NCBI GenBank assembly: GCA_003647765.1
Contig: QMNM01000003.1
Coordinates: 1 to 17,922, forward strand
Reading direction: 5' to 3'
Length of the DNA: 17,922 nucleotides
Origin: Candidatus Cloacimonadota bacterium
GTDB taxonomy: Bacteria > Cloacimonadota > Cloacimonadia > JGIOTU-2 > B8-G9
Of the stretch, positions 2,132-16,880 are shown piece after piece (within the stretch, counting starts at the first letter, position 1; each line of letters starts with the position of its first letter). The position numbers and the translations under genes were made by a program. The notes below the pieces were generated by a model. The model had not been told where the DNA came from, did no database searches, and saw nothing but the letters and a program-made list of their open reading frames with translations.

Positions 2132-5100
2132 TTACACTTTCAACTTCTGCTCCAATTTAATAATCCGCTTTCTAATTATATCATAATTTCTGAACTGCGA
2201 GACACTGTGTTTAAGCATAAATTGTAAGTCAACTTTCTTTTCTATATGTAGTCGCTTCTGTTTATTATACGAATATGGAGTGTCATTTTCCCAATTGACA
2301 AGTAATGAGTTTTCATTAATATTTTCGTTAAGAAACATATTAAGCACTTCAATATTACTTTTTCCAGATATAGGCCTTAATATTTGTTTTACTTCCTGAA
2401 CAGTGCCGTCATCAGAAATAAAGCTACCTTTTGATTCAGCAAAAGTTGCACTTGGTAAAACTACATTCGCCATCCTGGCTGTCTCTGTTAAATAAGAATC
2501 CATAACTATCAAAAACTCCAAATTATTAAGCCAATTATATACATTCATTTTATTATCAATTAGCGGGTCTTCATTAATAATAAAAGCAGAATTAATATTT
2601 GGAAGTTGGATAATCGGTCGGAAATTCAGAGATTGCAATGCTCTTAAATTTGCTATTTCAGAAGTGGAAATAATTCCTTCACCTTCTATACCAATATCGC
2701 CTTTGAGTGATGCTAAATTAAATATGGACTGCTGAACATCTCTACTAATGCGTGATTCTGAATAAATAATGATTGACTTTTTACATTCGGCAAACAATTT
2801 TGCGCATTCTTCGTATTTAGTGTCCTCATTATAATTAGCAACACCTTTTTGAACCTGATGGTTATATTCAGTAAAATTATTAACATTTCTCGTAATTGCA
2901 GATACATTATGCTTACGATTTATTATTAAATATTTGGCTACATAATTGAGCAATCCACCATAATCATCTGTTTTAATAAATACATCTGCTAATTTTTTGA
3001 ATTTGTTATCTTCTGGTGAGATGACTATCAATTTTTTGCCCTGTCTTTTAGCAGATAATATTTTTATACCAAGAGTATGGCTTAGCTGTCCAACTACTAA
3101 TATTATGTCTGTTAATTCCAGGTCAGAAATTGGATTTGGAGAATAATTAAAATGAAGCTTTTCATTCAGGAATGAATGTGGAATGCTGAACGAGTATTTC
3201 CTTTCAGGAGAGAATCTTTCAGCAATTTTATTTACTATGGAAAGCTCTTCTGATGTCATTCTACCACTTGTGAATATTGCAGAATTATCAGACAATTTTT
3301 CAATATTTTCTTTAATGTATTTCTCTGCTTCTTGCCATGATACTGTTTTTAATGTACCTTCTCGCCTAATCATAGGATTAACTAATCTATCATTTTCCTG
3401 TAATGCTTCATAACCAAAATGAGCAAAGAAGCAGATATTATTATCACTTACAATACCTTCTGCGGCTGTGGTTCGTAATATTTTCTTATCAGCAGGTTCC
3501 ATATAAAGTTGACATCCTGTTCCACAAATACCGCAGGTCGTTTGAATTTTTTCTCTCTCATATGGAGCTAGTTTATGATAAATTGTCTTTTCTGTCAAAG
3601 CACCAACAGGACATACAGTAATACATTTGCCACAAGATTCACAGTCGGTTTCCTGTAATGGACTTCCGAATTCTGGACCTACGATTGTAGAAAATCCACG
3701 ATACATAAAGCCCAACACACCCACACCTTGAATATCCATACAGGTGCGTACACATCTACCACAATTTATACATTTATTTGGATCGCGTAAAATAAAAGGA
3801 TGATTATCATCTATAATATAATGATTTGATTCACCAATTAAATCTTTTAGCACTATATTATAATTAGTTGCATACTTTCGCAAATCACAGGTCTCATTAA
3901 CCTGACAACCACATTCCATGCATCGTTTGCATTCTTCAATTGCCTGCTCATCTGTAAAGCCCTGCTCTATCTCATTAAAATTAGTGATTCTCTCTTCTAC
4001 TGATAATTCTGGCATTTTTGCACGAGGAACTTTCTCAAACCGTTCATATTCTTTAACATCAACATCCTTAATATCCTCTGCTTTTTTGCTGTTGAATTTC
4101 TCATCTATGGGTATAATTTCTTCGCCTTTTAGATATTTATCAATATAAAAAGCTGCTTTTCTTGCATCAGCAATAGATTCCACTACTGTTGAAGGCCCAC
4201 GCGTTACATCTCCACCAGCAAATACTTTATCAATATTCGTTCTTTGCGTCTTTTCATCTATAACAATTGTATTCCATTTAGTTAAATCCAGGTATCTATC
4301 TTGTATGGAATAATTTTCTTTTGTTAAGAATTTTGTATCAGGAGATTGGCTAACAGCAGAAATAATCATATCTATTTCTATTGTATATTCAGAATTTTCT
4401 ATAGGGATAGGTCTTCTTCTACCGCTTTCATCAGGTTCGCCAAGCTTCATTTTTATAAGTTCAATACCACTAACTTTACCATTTGTGCCAAGAATTTTAG
4501 TTGGATTGCGAAGTAATTCTAAATGAATGCCTTCTTTTTTTGAATATTCAATCTCTAGTTTTTCTGCTGGCATTTGCTCTTCTGCACGACGATAAATAAT
4601 ATACACTTGTTCTGCACCTAATCGCAACGCGGTTCGTGCAGAATCAATAGCAGTATTACCACCACCAATAACACCGACCTTTTTACCAATCTTAATATCT
4701 CTTCCCATTGCTATTTCTCGCAGAAAATCAATGCCAAGATAATAGCCATCCAAATCTTCACCTGGTATTCTTAAACTGATTGCCTTGTGAGCACCCATTG
4801 CTAAATAAATAGCATCGTATTCCTTAGATAAATATTGCAATGTAAAGTCCCGTCCCAATTTCTCATCGTTTTTAATTTCTACACCTAATTCTTCAATGAG
4901 TGATATTTCTTTATCTAAAATATCCTTTGGTAGCCGATACTCAGGAATACCATAACGAAGCATTCCACCACTTTTTTGTAATGCTTCGTACACAACACAT
5001 TTATGTCCTTGTTTAGCCAAAAAATAAGCCGCAGATAATCCTGATGGTCCAGAACCTACAATTGCCACTTTTTTGCCTGTCCATTCCTTGATTTCTGGCT

Positions 5101-5653
5101 TGTAATGAAACTCAGATTGGATGTCTTTATCAGCGACAAACCTTTTCAATTGTCTAATAGCAATCGGTTCATCAACAATATTTCTACGGCATTGTTCTTC
5201 ACATGGAGCAGGACAAACTCTGCCAATTGTAAGAGGGAAAGGTAATTTCTCTTTTATCAAGCTAATTGCTTTCCTATATTCACCATTACTGATAAGAGCA
5301 ATATAAGATTGCACATTGATTCCAGCTGGGCAAGCTAAATTACAAGGGGCTACGCAATCTGCATAATGGTCTGATAATAATAGTTCTAAAGCCATTTTCC
5401 TTGCACAATGAATATCATCATTATCTGTTTCTATTTCCATTCCTTCTTGAACAGTTGTGCCGCAAGATGTAACAAATCCTTTTGCTCCTTTTACTTGCAC
5501 AAGACAAACCCAACAAGAACCATAAGGTTTTAAGTACTTATCATTACATAAAGTTGGGATTTCAATGTTGTTCTTTTTAGCGACTTCTAATATTGTTTTC
5601 CCTGATTCTGTACATATTTTCTTACCATTTAATTTTATCGTTATCTCTGACAT
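2132..5653 (-). CDS. stnC: Stn-type transhydrogenase, large subunit (2Fe-2S / GltD-like / NuoG-like fusion)
   Basis: This 1173-residue cytoplasmic protein is a predicted NADPH-handling subunit of an electron-bifurcating transhydrogenase. In order it shows: an N-terminal 2Fe-2S domain (Cys 36, 47, 50, 64); HxxxCxxPCxxxCP and VCPAPCEEQC cysteine motifs at about 96-155, as in GltD; an FAD site GSGPSG at 200-205; an NADP site GGGNTA at 330-335 followed by YRR at 354-356, which favours NADPH; and a second FAD contact AGGD at about 479-482. Next come a Cys-rich linker (575-589), two 4Fe-4S clusters (628-638 and 671-681), and a NuoG/formate-dehydrogenase-type cluster (Cys 707, 710, 714, 741). The final 430 residues are a molybdopterin-oxidoreductase fold without an evident catalytic Sec/Cys or a C-terminal cofactor-binding domain. 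I prefer ATG 5653, with GAGAGG upstream, over the GTG at 5668 that overlaps the stnB stop. GltD plus NuoG in one chain beside NuoE and NuoF matches StnC. The symbol is by architecture, not by search. Confidence 0.82.
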   Translation of the reverse strand: MSEITIKLNGKKICTESGKTILEVAKKNNIEIPTLCNDKYLKPYGSCWVCLVQVKGAKGFVTSCGTTVQEGMEIETDNDDIHCARKMALELLLSDHYADCVAPCNLACPAGINVQSYIALISNGEYRKAISLIKEKLPFPLTIGRVCPAPCEEQCRRNIVDEPIAIRQLKRFVADKDIQSEFHYKPEIKEWTGKKVAIVGSGPSGLSAAYFLAKQGHKCVVYEALQKSGGMLRYGIPEYRLPKDILDKEISLIEELGVEIKNDEKLGRDFTLQYLSKEYDAIYLAMGAHKAISLRIPGEDLDGYYLGIDFLREIAMGRDIKIGKKVGVIGGGNTAIDSARTALRLGAEQVYIIYRRAEEQMPAEKLEIEYSKKEGIHLELLRNPTKILGTNGKVSGIELIKMKLGEPDESGRRRPIPIENSEYTIEIDMIISAVSQSPDTKFLTKENYSIQDRYLDLTKWNTIVIDEKTQRTNIDKVFAGGDVTRGPSTVVESIADARKAAFYIDKYLKGEEIIPIDEKFNSKKAEDIKDVDVKEYERFEKVPRAKMPELSVEERITNFNEIEQGFTDEQAIEECKRCMECGCQVNETCDLRKYATNYNIVLKDLIGESNHYIIDDNHPFILRDPNKCINCGRCVRTCMDIQGVGVLGFMYRGFSTIVGPEFGSPLQETDCESCGKCITVCPVGALTEKTIYHKLAPYEREKIQTTCGICGTGCQLYMEPADKKILRTTAAEGIVSDNNICFFAHFGYEALQENDRLVNPMIRREGTLKTVSWQEAEKYIKENIEKLSDNSAIFTSGRMTSEELSIVNKIAERFSPERKYSFSIPHSFLNEKLHFNYSPNPISDLELTDIILVVGQLSHTLGIKILSAKRQGKKLIVISPEDNKFKKLADVFIKTDDYGGLLNYVAKYLIINRKHNVSAITRNVNNFTEYNHQVQKGVANYNEDTKYEECAKLFAECKKSIIIYSESRISRDVQQSIFNLASLKGDIGIEGEGIISTSEIANLRALQSLNFRPIIQLPNINSAFIINEDPLIDNKMNVYNWLNNLEFLIVMDSYLTETARMANVVLPSATFAESKGSFISDDGTVQEVKQILRPISGKSNIEVLNMFLNENINENSLLVNWENDTPYSYNKQKRLHIEKKVDLQFMLKHSVSQFRNYDIIRKRIIKLEQKLKV

Positions 5654-5664
5654 TGTTAAACCTC

Positions 5665-7443
5665 TCACTTCTTTATAATAGCATCAAATTTACATACTTC
5701 ATAACAAGCACCACATTTAATACAAAGCTCTTGGTCAATAGTATGTTTTTGTTTAACTTCACCTGTAATTGCATTAACTTTACATACTTTGAAACATCTA
5801 TGGCATCCATTACAATTATCAGTAATTTCATAAGTTATTAATGCATTACATACTCCTGCTGGACAATGCATGTGTTCAATATGCTCTTCGTATTCGTCAC
5901 GAAAATATTTAATAGTAGTAATCACAGGATTTGGTGCTGTTTGTCCTAAACCACATAAGGAAGCTCGTTTGACTTTATCAGACAATTCTAATAATAATTC
6001 AATATCTCCTTTTTTGCCATTTCCTTGTGTGATTCTATTTAGAATTTCTAACATTCTTTTAGTTCCGATGCGGCAGAATGTACATTTACCACAGGACTCA
6101 TTTTGAGTGAAAGTGAGAAAATATTTAGCCACTTCTACCATACAGGCAGTTTCATCCATAACTACCATTCCGCCAGAACCCATAATCGCACCAGTTGCAG
6201 TAAGAGAATCATAATCTACTTGTGTATCCAACAATTTTTCTGGAATGCATCCGCCTGAAGGTCCGCCTAATTGTACTGCTTTGAACTTTTTATCATCCTT
6301 TATGCCTGCTCCAATATCAAAAATTACTTCTCGTAAAGTTATACCCATTGGGACTTCAATTAAGCCACTCTTTTTAACTTTCCCTGCTAAAGCAAATACT
6401 TTTGTGCCTTTACTTTTTTCTGTGCCATGTTTATTGAATTCTTTTGCACCATTGCGAATAATCCAGGCTACATTAGCATAAGTTTCTACATTATTGATAT
6501 TGGTTGGTTTTCCCCAAAGTCCTGATATTGCTGGGTAAGGTGGTCTAATTTTTGGCATTCCTCTTTCGCCTTCAATAGATGCCATTAGTGCTGTTTCTTC
6601 ACCACAGACAAAAGCACCAGCTCCTTCCATTATTTTTAATTCAAAGTCAAAACCAGTTCCAAGAATGTCTTTTCCCAAAAATCCCTTTTCCTGAGCATTT
6701 TTTATTGCTTTTCTCAATCTTTTTACTGCTAATGGATATTCAGCACGCACATAAACAAATCCATGAGTCGTGCCAATAGCATAAGCTGCAATAATCATTC
6801 CTTCCAGTACCGAATGTGGGTCACCTTCAAGAACGCTACGATCCATAAATGCACCTGGGTCACCTTCATCAGCATTACATATAAGATATTTTTCATTTCC
6901 AGGAGAATTATGAGCAAATTGCCATTTTACGCCAGTAGGAAATCCAGCACCACCTCTACCACGCAATCCTGATTCCTTTATCTCATCAATTACTTGCTGG
7001 GACTTCATATCAGTAAGCACTTTTTTTAAGGCATCATATCCACCTATCGCAATATATTCTTCAATAGATTCCGGGTTAATTCTACCACAATTTCGCAGAA
7101 CAATTCTTGTCTGTGAATTGATAATCTGAGTTTCACTTCCACCAAATTTATCAGAAAGCACAATATTATTTAGCATTGGCTTTTTATTGATAATATGGGA
7201 CTCAATGATTTGTCCAACTTGTTCGGGTTTTACTTCACCGTAGATAATTCTGCCTATATCTGACCCTGATATTTCCAAAAGTGGCTCTTTATAACACATT
7301 CCTATACAGCCAGTTGGGACAAGCTCGGCATCAATATTATGTTCTTTAATATATTCCTTTGCCTTTTCAAATACATAATTTCCACCAGCGGCAATGCCAC
7401 AACTTGCTAAACCAACAGTAATTCTTATATTTTTATTTTCCAA
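5665..7443 (-). CDS. stnB: NuoF/HydB-like flavin and NADH-binding subunit of the Stn-type complex
   Basis: This 592-residue protein is the predicted NADH-oxidising, FMN-containing bifurcating subunit. The N-terminus is a thioredoxin-like 2Fe-2S domain (Cys 15, 46, 50 and a partner). The NuoF core follows, with GRGGAGFP at 162-169 and NADEGDPGA at 190-198 for FMN/NADH, GEETAL at 281-286, and a 4Fe-4S site at Cys 451, 454, 457, 497. The C-terminus adds two ferredoxin-type 4Fe-4S clusters (Cys 544-554 and 574-584). Complex I NuoF lacks this extra tail, but HydB-type bifurcating subunits have it. The start is a TTG at 7443, supported by a strong AAGGAGG five bases upstream and by no nearby ATG. 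The stop lies 11 bases before the stnC ATG, so the two are surely co-transcribed. A terminator-like hairpin separates it from stnA. HydB of an FeFe hydrogenase is the alternative, but no HydA is in the window. Confidence 0.87.
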   Translation of the reverse strand: MENKNIRITVGLASCGIAAGGNYVFEKAKEYIKEHNIDAELVPTGCIGMCYKEPLLEISGSDIGRIIYGEVKPEQVGQIIESHIINKKPMLNNIVLSDKFGGSETQIINSQTRIVLRNCGRINPESIEEYIAIGGYDALKKVLTDMKSQQVIDEIKESGLRGRGGAGFPTGVKWQFAHNSPGNEKYLICNADEGDPGAFMDRSVLEGDPHSVLEGMIIAAYAIGTTHGFVYVRAEYPLAVKRLRKAIKNAQEKGFLGKDILGTGFDFELKIMEGAGAFVCGEETALMASIEGERGMPKIRPPYPAISGLWGKPTNINNVETYANVAWIIRNGAKEFNKHGTEKSKGTKVFALAGKVKKSGLIEVPMGITLREVIFDIGAGIKDDKKFKAVQLGGPSGGCIPEKLLDTQVDYDSLTATGAIMGSGGMVVMDETACMVEVAKYFLTFTQNESCGKCTFCRIGTKRMLEILNRITQGNGKKGDIELLLELSDKVKRASLCGLGQTAPNPVITTIKYFRDEYEEHIEHMHCPAGVCNALITYEITDNCNGCHRCFKVCKVNAITGEVKQKHTIDQELCIKCGACYEVCKFDAIIKK

Positions 7444-7567
7444 AATTCCTCCTTATATCGCATTCTCAGTGAAATCATTTTATATAAAAAATGCATGATA
7501 TACAAATGCGAGTGAGTATTATGCTAAAAGACATATCCGCCTTATACGAAAGCCCACACATCAGCTC

Positions 7568-7592
7568 AAAAAAAAGCGTTCTGAAAAACGCT
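7568..7592 (-). terminator. Intrinsic terminator inside the stn cluster
   Basis: Read on the minus strand, AGCGTT and AACGCT pair around a six-base loop and run straight into seven T residues. It lies between stnA (ends 7662) and stnB (starts 7443). It could lower stnBC expression relative to stnA or be a regulated attenuator. The stem is short, so termination may be partial. Confidence 0.6.
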
Positions 7593-7608
7593 ATTCAATA
7601 GGACGCAT

Positions 7609-7635
7609 CTACGGTCTTTTGTGAATTAGCCGTAG
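7609..7635 (-). promoter_or_regulatory. Hairpin upstream of the internal stn terminator
   Basis: CTACGG and CCGTAG form a six-base-pair stem with a 15-base loop, 17 bases before the terminator hairpin on the minus strand and just after the stnA stop codon. A structured element followed by a terminator is the usual layout of an attenuator or riboswitch. I do not recognise any known class here. It could equally be a simple mRNA-end structure. Confidence 0.35.
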
Positions 7636-7661
7636 CGACTCCACATTTTATTATCAATCTT

Positions 7662-8123
7662 TTAGTATTCAGCCAATATTTTCTTTATCTTATCAGGAGT
7701 TAAGCGTCCATAAGTTTTTTCGTTAATCATAATTACTGGTGCTAAACTACAACATCCCAGGCATGCTACTATTTCCACAGTAAATTTTCCATCCTTTGTA
7801 GTTTCTCCTTCTTTAACTCCTAAGTAATCTAATATGGAATGTATAATGCCAATAGCATTTGAAACATGACAAGCAGTCCCATTGCAAATCCTGATAATAT
7901 TTTTGCCAATTGGCTGTAATCTAAATTGAGTATAAAAAGTAACAATCCCATAAATGATGCTGGCTGATTTACCTGTTTTTTGTGCAATATATTTCATTAC
8001 ATCTCTTGATAAATAACCATTAACTTGTTGAACCTCTTGAAGAATTGGTATAAGAGTTCCACGCTCTCCTTCATATTTAGAGACGATATTATCAATCAAT
8101 TGCATATCTGAATATTCATTCAT
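7662..8123 (-). CDS. stnA: NuoE/HydC-like 2Fe-2S subunit of the Stn-type complex
   Basis: This 153-residue thioredoxin-fold 2Fe-2S protein is of the 24-kDa complex I type. The helical N-terminal part (about residues 10-65) includes GYLSRDVMKYIAQ and SIIYGIVTFYTQF, hallmarks of the family. The cluster ligands are C80-x4-C85 and C121-x3-C125 (in CLGCC), followed by APVIMINEKTYGRLTPDKI. It should pass electrons to or from the FMN of the NuoF-like partner. The ATG at 8123 has AGGAG five to six bases upstream. It is the first gene of the cluster in the order NuoE-like, NuoF-like, GltD/NuoG fusion, the order I recall for stnABC in Sporomusa. About 220 bases holding a hairpin and a terminator separate it from stnB, which is unusual for an obligate complex partner. 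Family certainty is high; the Stn assignment comes from the neighbours. Confidence 0.87.
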   Translation of the reverse strand: MNEYSDMQLIDNIVSKYEGERGTLIPILQEVQQVNGYLSRDVMKYIAQKTGKSASIIYGIVTFYTQFRLQPIGKNIIRICNGTACHVSNAIGIIHSILDYLGVKEGETTKDGKFTVEIVACLGCCSLAPVIMINEKTYGRLTPDKIKKILAEY

Positions 8124-15587: not shown

Positions 15588-16880
15588 ATGAAAATTGGAA
15601 TTAGACGAGAGAATAAGAACAAATGGGAAAAAAGAGTACCACTTACTCCAAATGATATGAAAATATTGATAGATAAATACAATTTACAATTTATACTTCA
15701 GCCATCACCAATAAGAATTTTTACTGATGAAGAATACATCAGCATCGGAGCAGAAATAAATGAGAATTTGTCAGAATGTAGTCCAATATTTGCAGTTAAA
15801 GAGATTCCATTATCTTTTTTTGAAAAGGATAAAACATACATATTTTTTTCTCATACAATAAAAGGTCAGGCATATAATATTCCAATGCTTAAAAGAATGA
15901 TGGAGTTAAAGGATAATCTCATTGATTACGAAAAAGTGGTTGATAAACATGGGAAAAGATTGATATTTTTTGGCACTTATGCTGGCTATGCAGGAATGAT
16001 AGATTCTTTTTATGCTCTTGGTAGAAAGCTTGATTGGCTTGGAATAACTAATCATTTTGATGAAATAAACATGGCACATTCATACAAAAGTTTGGAACAA
16101 GCAAAGCAGGCAATCAGAAAAATCGGTCAGGAAATAGCAAGACATGGGTTACCAAAAGAGATTACTCCTTTTATATGTGGCTTTGCTGGATATGGTCATG
16201 TATCTACTGGAGCACAAAAAATCTTTGATTTACTACCTTACGAGGAAATTTCACCAAAAGAATTATTAACAAGGGAACTCGTTTCCTATTCCAATAAAAA
16301 ATTATATAAAGTTATATTTAAGGAAGAACATATTGCTAGACCGAAAAATGATAATGATAAATTTGAATTACAGGATTATTATCATCATCCAGAGAAATAC
16401 ATTAGCAATTTTGAGCAATTTATTCCATATCTATCAATGTTAATAAATGGCATTTATTGGGATGAACCTTACCCTAAATTGATAACAAAAGATTATGTAA
16501 AAAATAATAAATTAAAATTATTAGTAATTGGTGATATAAGTTGTGATATTGAAGGTGCAATAGAACTGACAGTTAAAGCTACTGAGCCAGATAATCCGAT
16601 ATATGTGTATAATTCTTCAACAGGTGAAATTAGTGATGGAGTAGAAGGAGATGGTATTGTAATTATGGCTGTGGATAATTTACCTTGTGAGATTTCAAAA
16701 GAAGCATCTATTTATTTTAGCAAGCAGCTAATGAAATTTGTTCCAGCCATAGCAAAGGCAGATTTTTCCAGTTCAATTGAAAAATGTCATCTACCTGATG
16801 AGATAAGAAGAGCTTTGATACTTTATCATGGAAAATTGACAGATAAGTTTAAGTATATGGAAAAATTTCTGCATCTTTAA
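15588..16880 (+). CDS. Lysine-ketoglutarate reductase-type (LOR/SDH-like) dehydrogenase
   Basis: This 430-residue protein resembles the lysine-2-oxoglutarate reductase half of the bifunctional alpha-aminoadipate semialdehyde synthase. It starts with the family hallmark IGIRRENKNKWEKRVPLTP (residues 3-21). Next are QPSPIRIFTDEEYISIGAEI, FFSHTIKGQAYNIPML and LIDYEKVVD, typical of the alanine dehydrogenase/PNT N-terminal fold. The FGTYAGYAGMIDSFYALG stretch and a central ITPFICGFAGYGHVSTGAQ follow. The C-terminal part (LLVIGDISCDIEGAIE onward) completes the enzyme. The separate C-terminal saccharopine dehydrogenase domain of eukaryotic fusions is absent. The likely chemistry is NAD(P)H-dependent, joining or splitting lysine and 2-oxoglutarate, but the substrate is not proven. 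ATG 15588 has AAGGAG upstream. Its partner saccharopine dehydrogenase is not in the window. Confidence 0.8.
   Translation: MKIGIRRENKNKWEKRVPLTPNDMKILIDKYNLQFILQPSPIRIFTDEEYISIGAEINENLSECSPIFAVKEIPLSFFEKDKTYIFFSHTIKGQAYNIPMLKRMMELKDNLIDYEKVVDKHGKRLIFFGTYAGYAGMIDSFYALGRKLDWLGITNHFDEINMAHSYKSLEQAKQAIRKIGQEIARHGLPKEITPFICGFAGYGHVSTGAQKIFDLLPYEEISPKELLTRELVSYSNKKLYKVIFKEEHIARPKNDNDKFELQDYYHHPEKYISNFEQFIPYLSMLINGIYWDEPYPKLITKDYVKNNKLKLLVIGDISCDIEGAIELTVKATEPDNPIYVYNSSTGEISDGVEGDGIVIMAVDNLPCEISKEASIYFSKQLMKFVPAIAKADFSSSIEKCHLPDEIRRALILYHGKLTDKFKYMEKFLHL

Follow-up and report, generated by a model that had tools for sequence, protein, structure and literature searches.

StnABC, a predicted Sporomusa-type electron-bifurcating transhydrogenase encoded in a genome of the Cloacimonadota

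The window analysed here, a stretch of 17,922 nucleotides, lies on contig QMNM01000003.1 of a 1.97 Mb metagenome-assembled genome (MAG; 88.8% complete, 360 contigs). The host belongs to the Cloacimonadota, within the Cloacimonas class but in a different order, which supports the guess of an earlier note, made from the sequence alone, that it is a member of the Fibrobacterota–Chlorobiota–Bacteroidota (FCB) group. In genome G018 of the same class, the Kce protein is identical over 275 residues to PDB 2y7d, the Kce of Candidatus Cloacamonas acidaminovorans. Characterisation of kce in that organism has been published (PMC3149608). Between positions 2132 and 8123, the window carries three adjacent open reading frames on the minus strand, stnA, stnB and stnC, exactly where the earlier note had placed them. 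Their Pfam domains are those of the NuoE-like protein, the NuoF-like protein with a ferredoxin tail and the fused 2Fe-2S/GltD/NuoG chain that it had described:

7662..8123, minus strand: stnA, a NuoE/HydC/BfuC-like [2Fe-2S] subunit of thioredoxin fold, 153 residues, ATG start, PF01257
5665..7443, minus strand: stnB, a NuoF/HydB/BfuB-like FMN/NADH subunit with a C-terminal ferredoxin domain for two [4Fe-4S] clusters, 592 residues
2132..5668, minus strand: stnC, a fused 2Fe-2S, GltD-like and NuoG/FdhF-like subunit, 1178 residues from a GTG start

The genes stnB and stnC share 4 nucleotides, and a gap of 218 nucleotides separates stnA from stnB. The start codon of stnB is TTG, with AAGGAGG immediately upstream. 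For stnC, the start is likely the internal ATG at 5653, giving 1173 residues, because it aligns with residue 1 of Sporomusa ovata StnC. The A-B-C order is common to nearly all loci inspected in relatives of the same class. An Rfam search of the window gave no match, and promoter-like and terminator-like sites in the region occur at chance frequency; one terminator-like stem with a T-run (7575-7592, minus strand), situated inside the stnA–stnB gap, is likewise not above chance.

We propose that stnABC very probably encodes a Sporomusa-type electron-bifurcating transhydrogenase (Stn, also known as Nfn-Bfu or NfnABC). This is the assignment made in the earlier note, and it agrees with the set of subunits and their architecture, with the diagnostic residues and with the phylogeny of StnB. 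Every testable defining feature of the Stn/Nfn-Bfu family is present in the three genes, and as judged from their sequences, the product is most likely a working NADH/ferredoxin:NADP+ transhydrogenase. The largest subunit, StnC, contains the Pfam domains Fer2_4, Fer4_20, Pyr_redox_2, Fer4_Nqo3 and Molybdopterin together with a weak Molybdop_Fe4S4 match, arranged as follows:

5354..5653, minus strand: N-terminal [2Fe-2S] domain of StnC (residues 6-105), PF13510, ligands C41, C52, C55 and C69
4109..5356, minus strand: GltD/NfnB-like FAD/NADPH module of StnC (residues 105-520), Fer4_20 and Pyr_redox_2
5312..5314, minus strand: StnC Val119, corresponding to Sporomusa C114; valine or isoleucine in all 29 aligned rows
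5144..5146, minus strand: StnC Lys175, corresponding to Sporomusa K170, a ligand of C7, the cluster proximal to the FAD; glutamate in NfnB
2339..3856, minus strand: NuoG/FdhF-like part of StnC (residues 605-1110), PF22117, PF04879 and PF00384, with an eight-cysteine dicluster

Against solved structures (named here from their fold-search titles), StnC scored highest with 9bov_A of Caldicellulosiruptor saccharolyticus Nfn-ABC (912 bits, residues 9-1110), followed by 8oh5_C of S. ovata StnABC (805 bits, 8.4e-241, residues 6-1110) and 9n5u_A of Thermococcus sibiricus NfnABC; NfnB, glutamate synthase, formate dehydrogenase and complex I came after these and matched single domains only. The same three complexes were the top matches in fold comparison, in which the GltD-like module of StnC also superposed on Pyrococcus NfnL over 402 residues at a root-mean-square deviation (rmsd) of 1.4 A. 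Each subunit matches its 9bov chain, and E values of 4.5e-273 (StnC), 2e-258 (StnB) and 3.1e-51 (StnA) show that this is not due to chance.

The C. saccharolyticus enzyme (9bov, 9bp5), the top-scoring structure for both StnC and StnB, shares with the window the three subunits, the full-length StnC architecture and the lysine at the C7 position, but it comes from a Firmicute and has a cysteine where the window StnC has Val119. S. ovata StnABC (8oh5, 8oh9) shares the architecture, K170, R239, E184, D186 and both cysteine-rich motifs, and the degenerate N-terminal thioredoxin domain of StnB is common to the two. It differs at C114. Its host, an acetogen, possesses both Rnf and an electron-bifurcating hydrogenase, neither of which was found in the window genome. 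The T. sibiricus enzyme (NfnABC or Nfn-Bfu; 9n5u, 9n5v) shares the reaction class, the lysine and the valine at the C114 position; in contrast, it is archaeal, and its StnC counterpart is shorter by about 200 residues and has an incomplete FdhF domain.

Mapping of StnC onto the cryo-EM description of S. ovata Stn (PMC10482914) placed K170 at K175, R239 at R245, Y117 at Y122 and C114 at V119. The comparison with that structure proposed in the earlier note thus found all StnC cluster ligands that were checked. In an alignment of 29 rows (the window, class relatives and one Firmicute), C41, C52, C55 and C69 are invariant in 29/29, as are all Sporomusa cluster cysteines and the histidine of HxxxCxxxCxxxCP; the predicted ligands of the HxxxCxxxCxxxCP and CxxCxC...C motifs are thus present in every row. 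The NuoG/FdhF-like part further contains a MopB-type [4Fe-4S] site (C712, C715, C719, C746) and a degenerate molybdopterin domain.

Four other enzyme types with related parts were considered and rejected. Canonical NfnAB, as in Pyrococcus and Thermotoga, shares the GltD-like FAD/NADPH module with StnC, but it has glutamate for lysine at the proximal cluster, an NfnA partner and no HydBC-type core, whereas the window has Lys175 and an operon without NfnA. A complex I NuoEFG fragment does not account for the GltD insertion at StnC residues 105-520, and the window holds no Nuo membrane genes. In a formate dehydrogenase, the catalytic selenocysteine aligns with Pro830 of StnC, a position that varies among the relatives, and the C-terminal molybdopterin domain PF01568 was not detected in StnC by Pfam. 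The bifurcating [FeFe] hydrogenase HydABC has subunits HydC and HydB homologous to StnA and StnB, but its H-cluster subunit has no counterpart in stnABC and its BfuB falls in a separate clade; the H-cluster domain (PF02906) was not found in the window genome by a search that did detect it in Thermotoga maritima, used as a control.

StnA has the cluster A1 ligands C80, C85, C121 and C125 and matches 9bov_C (3.1e-51) and 8oh5_A (2.4e-46), although it is about equally close to Thermoanaerobacter kivui HydC and to 9bov_C. StnB (PF01512, PF10589 and two Fer4 repeats) scores higher with the Stn-type complexes than with hydrogenases, at 862 bits for 9bov_B, 846 for 9n5u_B and 830 for 8oh5_B, compared with 730 for the top FeFe-HydB. 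It contains both the His/Cys site and the C-terminal dicluster of the BfuB core:

5881..5883, minus strand: StnB His521, the BfuB histidine; histidine in 31/31 Stn-type rows
5674..5823, minus strand: StnB ferredoxin tail (residues 541-590) with clusters B3/B4, the presumed ferredoxin site

The eight cysteines of the tail (C544-C584) are invariant in the same 31/31 Stn-type StnB rows. StnB retains the set H521/C434/C527/C532/T472, equivalent to the unusual site of bifurcating BfuB proteins described by Schut et al. (PMC9304861), who report the histidine in virtually all BfuB and its absence from non-bifurcating homologues. E193 and D195, corresponding to Sporomusa E184 and D186, are also kept.

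In a quick tree with Shimodaira–Hasegawa-like approximate likelihood ratio test (SH-aLRT) support and without bootstrap, built from StnB rather than StnC, the window StnB falls in a clade of 34 rows (SH-aLRT 100) that also contains the B subunits of the three solved Stn-type complexes, and the HydB proteins of hydrogenases lie outside it. These results bear on the possibility that stnABC encodes accessory subunits of NADH-dehydrogenase type that serve a hydrogenase or a formate dehydrogenase (Hyd/Hyl/FDH-type Bfu, FDH being formate dehydrogenase) whose catalytic subunit is located elsewhere. StnC does contain a molybdopterin-oxidoreductase domain, and other Cloacimonadota have HydABC and FDH clusters, each including a BfuB. 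However, those clusters are separate loci with BfuBs outside the Stn clade, StnC contains a GltD module and no catalytic selenocysteine or cysteine, and neither of the two observations by which the earlier note would have been refuted was made, as no FDH or hydrogenase catalytic site was seen and no HydA was found in the window genome. We therefore regard an accessory role as highly improbable. Only one NuoF-like protein was detected in the window genome.

Ligands for every station of the Sporomusa electron path are present in the window proteins. Based on a homology model of the mechanism taken from the S. ovata enzyme (PMC10482914), and by analogy with characterised homologues as regards cofactor occupancy, electron path and bifurcation, we propose the following hypothetical sequence, in which (i) the FAD of the GltD-like StnC module would be reduced by NADPH; (ii) the iron-sulfur chain of StnC would pass electrons to the FMN of StnB; (iii) a hydride would be transferred from this FMN to NAD+; and (iv) electrons of low potential would travel along the [2Fe-2S] arm of StnA to the StnB ferredoxin tail and from there to ferredoxin. 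The reaction would be reversible. In vivo, it would presumably run in the opposite direction in a fermentative host, the likely net role being the formation of 2 NADPH from NADH and reduced ferredoxin for biosynthesis, since no role in the Wood–Ljungdahl pathway is evident. An alternative is a Bfu-type enzyme whose third substrate is not NADP(H), such as a sulfur/oxygen reductase: the highly similar Nso of Thermococcus litoralis was named for NADPH-dependent sulfur/oxygen reduction (Kremp 2020, PMC7483475). Yet transhydrogenase activity characterises the closest relatives for which structures and assays exist, and the same authors suggest that Nso itself may be one, which makes this the least probable of the alternatives considered here.

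The Stn-type system is not peculiar to the window. Among 75 Cloacimonadota genomes, selected by a search for completeness of at least 90% and including the window genome (88.8%), 70 had a StnC-type match, the gene being split by contig ends in a few; the five without a match were G005, G039, G071, G074 and G080. The Cloacimonadota StnB rows form a single group (98) whose branching follows the families of the class, a pattern suggestive of vertical inheritance of stnB. One genome (G045) has a second, divergent Stn-like pair (C314; L118:2783-8277; StnC 35% and StnB 58% identical to the window) beside a standard stnABC. A scan of genome contigs with the StnC protein returned mostly GltD-only matches and extended beyond GltD only in L006, L007, L076 and, in part, L018. 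Stn-like genes were seen at L007:1425-5599 in a Victivallales MAG and at L076:3602-6987 in a Bacteroidaceae MAG, with StnC apparently shortened; the Bacteroidaceae StnB forms a long branch in the tree.

Two genomes, G008 (92% complete; L140:2662-5793) and G016 (59% complete; L111:4002-7589), have an stnC with neither adjacent stnAB nor a full BfuB match. In both orphan genes, the lysine equivalent to K170 is replaced (by asparagine and glutamine), whereas it is kept in 28/28 aligned stnC genes adjoining stnB. The sample is small, with two losses, one of them in the incomplete G016. The pattern is consistent with K170 being important where StnC has to supply StnAB with electrons, and, independently of mutants, it lends support to a role of this lysine in the StnAB partnership.

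Several observations weigh against the assignment of stnABC as a bifurcating transhydrogenase. The packing of the StnC AlphaFold model is uncertain (predicted template modelling score, pTM, 0.50; low predicted local distance difference test scores, pLDDT, at residues 607-703), and with a full-chain rmsd of about 30 A the model is usable per domain but not for packing. Val119 stands in place of Sporomusa C114, which tunes cluster C7, and sequence alone cannot show coupling; a non-bifurcating NADPH:NAD+ or NADPH:ferredoxin oxidoreductase made of the same parts, its coupling lost, might therefore be considered. C114 is, however, stated not to be strictly conserved (PMC10482914), and the objection is weakened because T. 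sibiricus NfnA, which has valine at this position and keeps the lysine (Caldicellulosiruptor has cysteine there), belongs to an enzyme reported to bifurcate (Schut 2022, PMC9304861). As the BfuB histidine and every B3/B4 ligand are also retained, we consider loss of coupling improbable.

Absences from the window genome are soft, given its completeness and fragmentation; this applies to PF02906 and also to RnfC, which was not found above the cut-off. In addition, Stn may not be the sole NADPH-linked route, since an NfnAB-like pair is encoded on contig C99 (L102:249-5606; L141) in an operon-like arrangement, followed by the large subunit of a group-4-type NiFe hydrogenase (CGIC and DPCYCC motifs) and Mbh/Mrp-type membrane subunits. 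The NfnB of this pair has glycine at the position of the ligand glutamate of Pyrococcus and Thermotoga NfnB, and three relatives of the same order (G001, G004, G007) have phenylalanine. A glutamate-bearing NfnB was found in 4/5 Stn-less genomes (all but G080) versus 7/70 Stn-bearing ones, a difference for which the Fisher test (p = 0.0013) ignores shared ancestry and contig breaks. This distribution echoes the near mutual exclusion of Stn and Nfn in acetogens (Kremp et al. 2020, PMC7483475). We tentatively suggest, with slightly more reserve than conviction, that Stn may be an ancestral, near phylum-wide NADPH route that stands in for NfnAB. The NfnAB-like pair of the window order would then be a remnant without the glutamate, and its operon-like setting with a membrane-bound NiFe hydrogenase in the window genome suggests that it may serve another purpose.

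The earlier note had expected the find to widen the known range of Stn beyond acetogens. This is not supported: the enzyme type is already known, and so is its presence outside acetogens, with stn clusters described in Firmicutes, Proteobacteria, Synergistetes and the archaeon T. litoralis (Kremp 2020, PMC7483475) and Nfn-Bfu in Euryarchaeota, Firmicutes, Synergistetes and Bacteroidetes (Schut 2022, PMC9304861). The metabolic reconstructions of Cloacimonadota consulted here name Rnf, Sud and hydrogenases and do not mention Stn (PMC7382037, PMC8542988, PMC13082233); one of them assigns Nfn to several other phyla, not to Cloacimonadota (PMC7382037). Our literature search, which covered papers but not supplementary tables that could hold a Cloacimonadota row, found none naming Stn in this phylum. 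The novelty is thus modest and consists of the near phylum-wide occurrence of Stn in Cloacimonadota, its near-exclusion with glutamate-bearing NfnAB and the lysine loss in orphan stnC. StnC is easily misannotated as a formate dehydrogenase, molybdopterin oxidoreductase or glutamate synthase, and other reconstructions may therefore have the same gap. A near-universal Stn would provide the missing connection among the pools of ferredoxin, NADH and NADPH in these uncultured bacteria, which matter in anaerobic digesters and propionate syntrophy.

Related modules also occur in other arrangements. In G013 (C239; L143:5223-8105), a 960-residue fusion joins a BfuB core lacking the ferredoxin tail to a GltD module with the Stn-type lysine, and adjoins a 2Fe-2S/dicluster protein and another protein with a Glu_synthase domain (also L135:3542-5911, G013:C102); this cluster is possibly an NADH-fed glutamate synthase. 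The window genome itself encodes two HdrA-like proteins in tandem as well as a GltD fusion protein resembling YgfK (L121:1316-5669, L103:2421-5891), candidates for other flavin-based electron-transfer enzymes. Elsewhere in the window, positions 15588-16880 encode a protein whose N- and C-terminal domains are of the AlaDH/PNT type.

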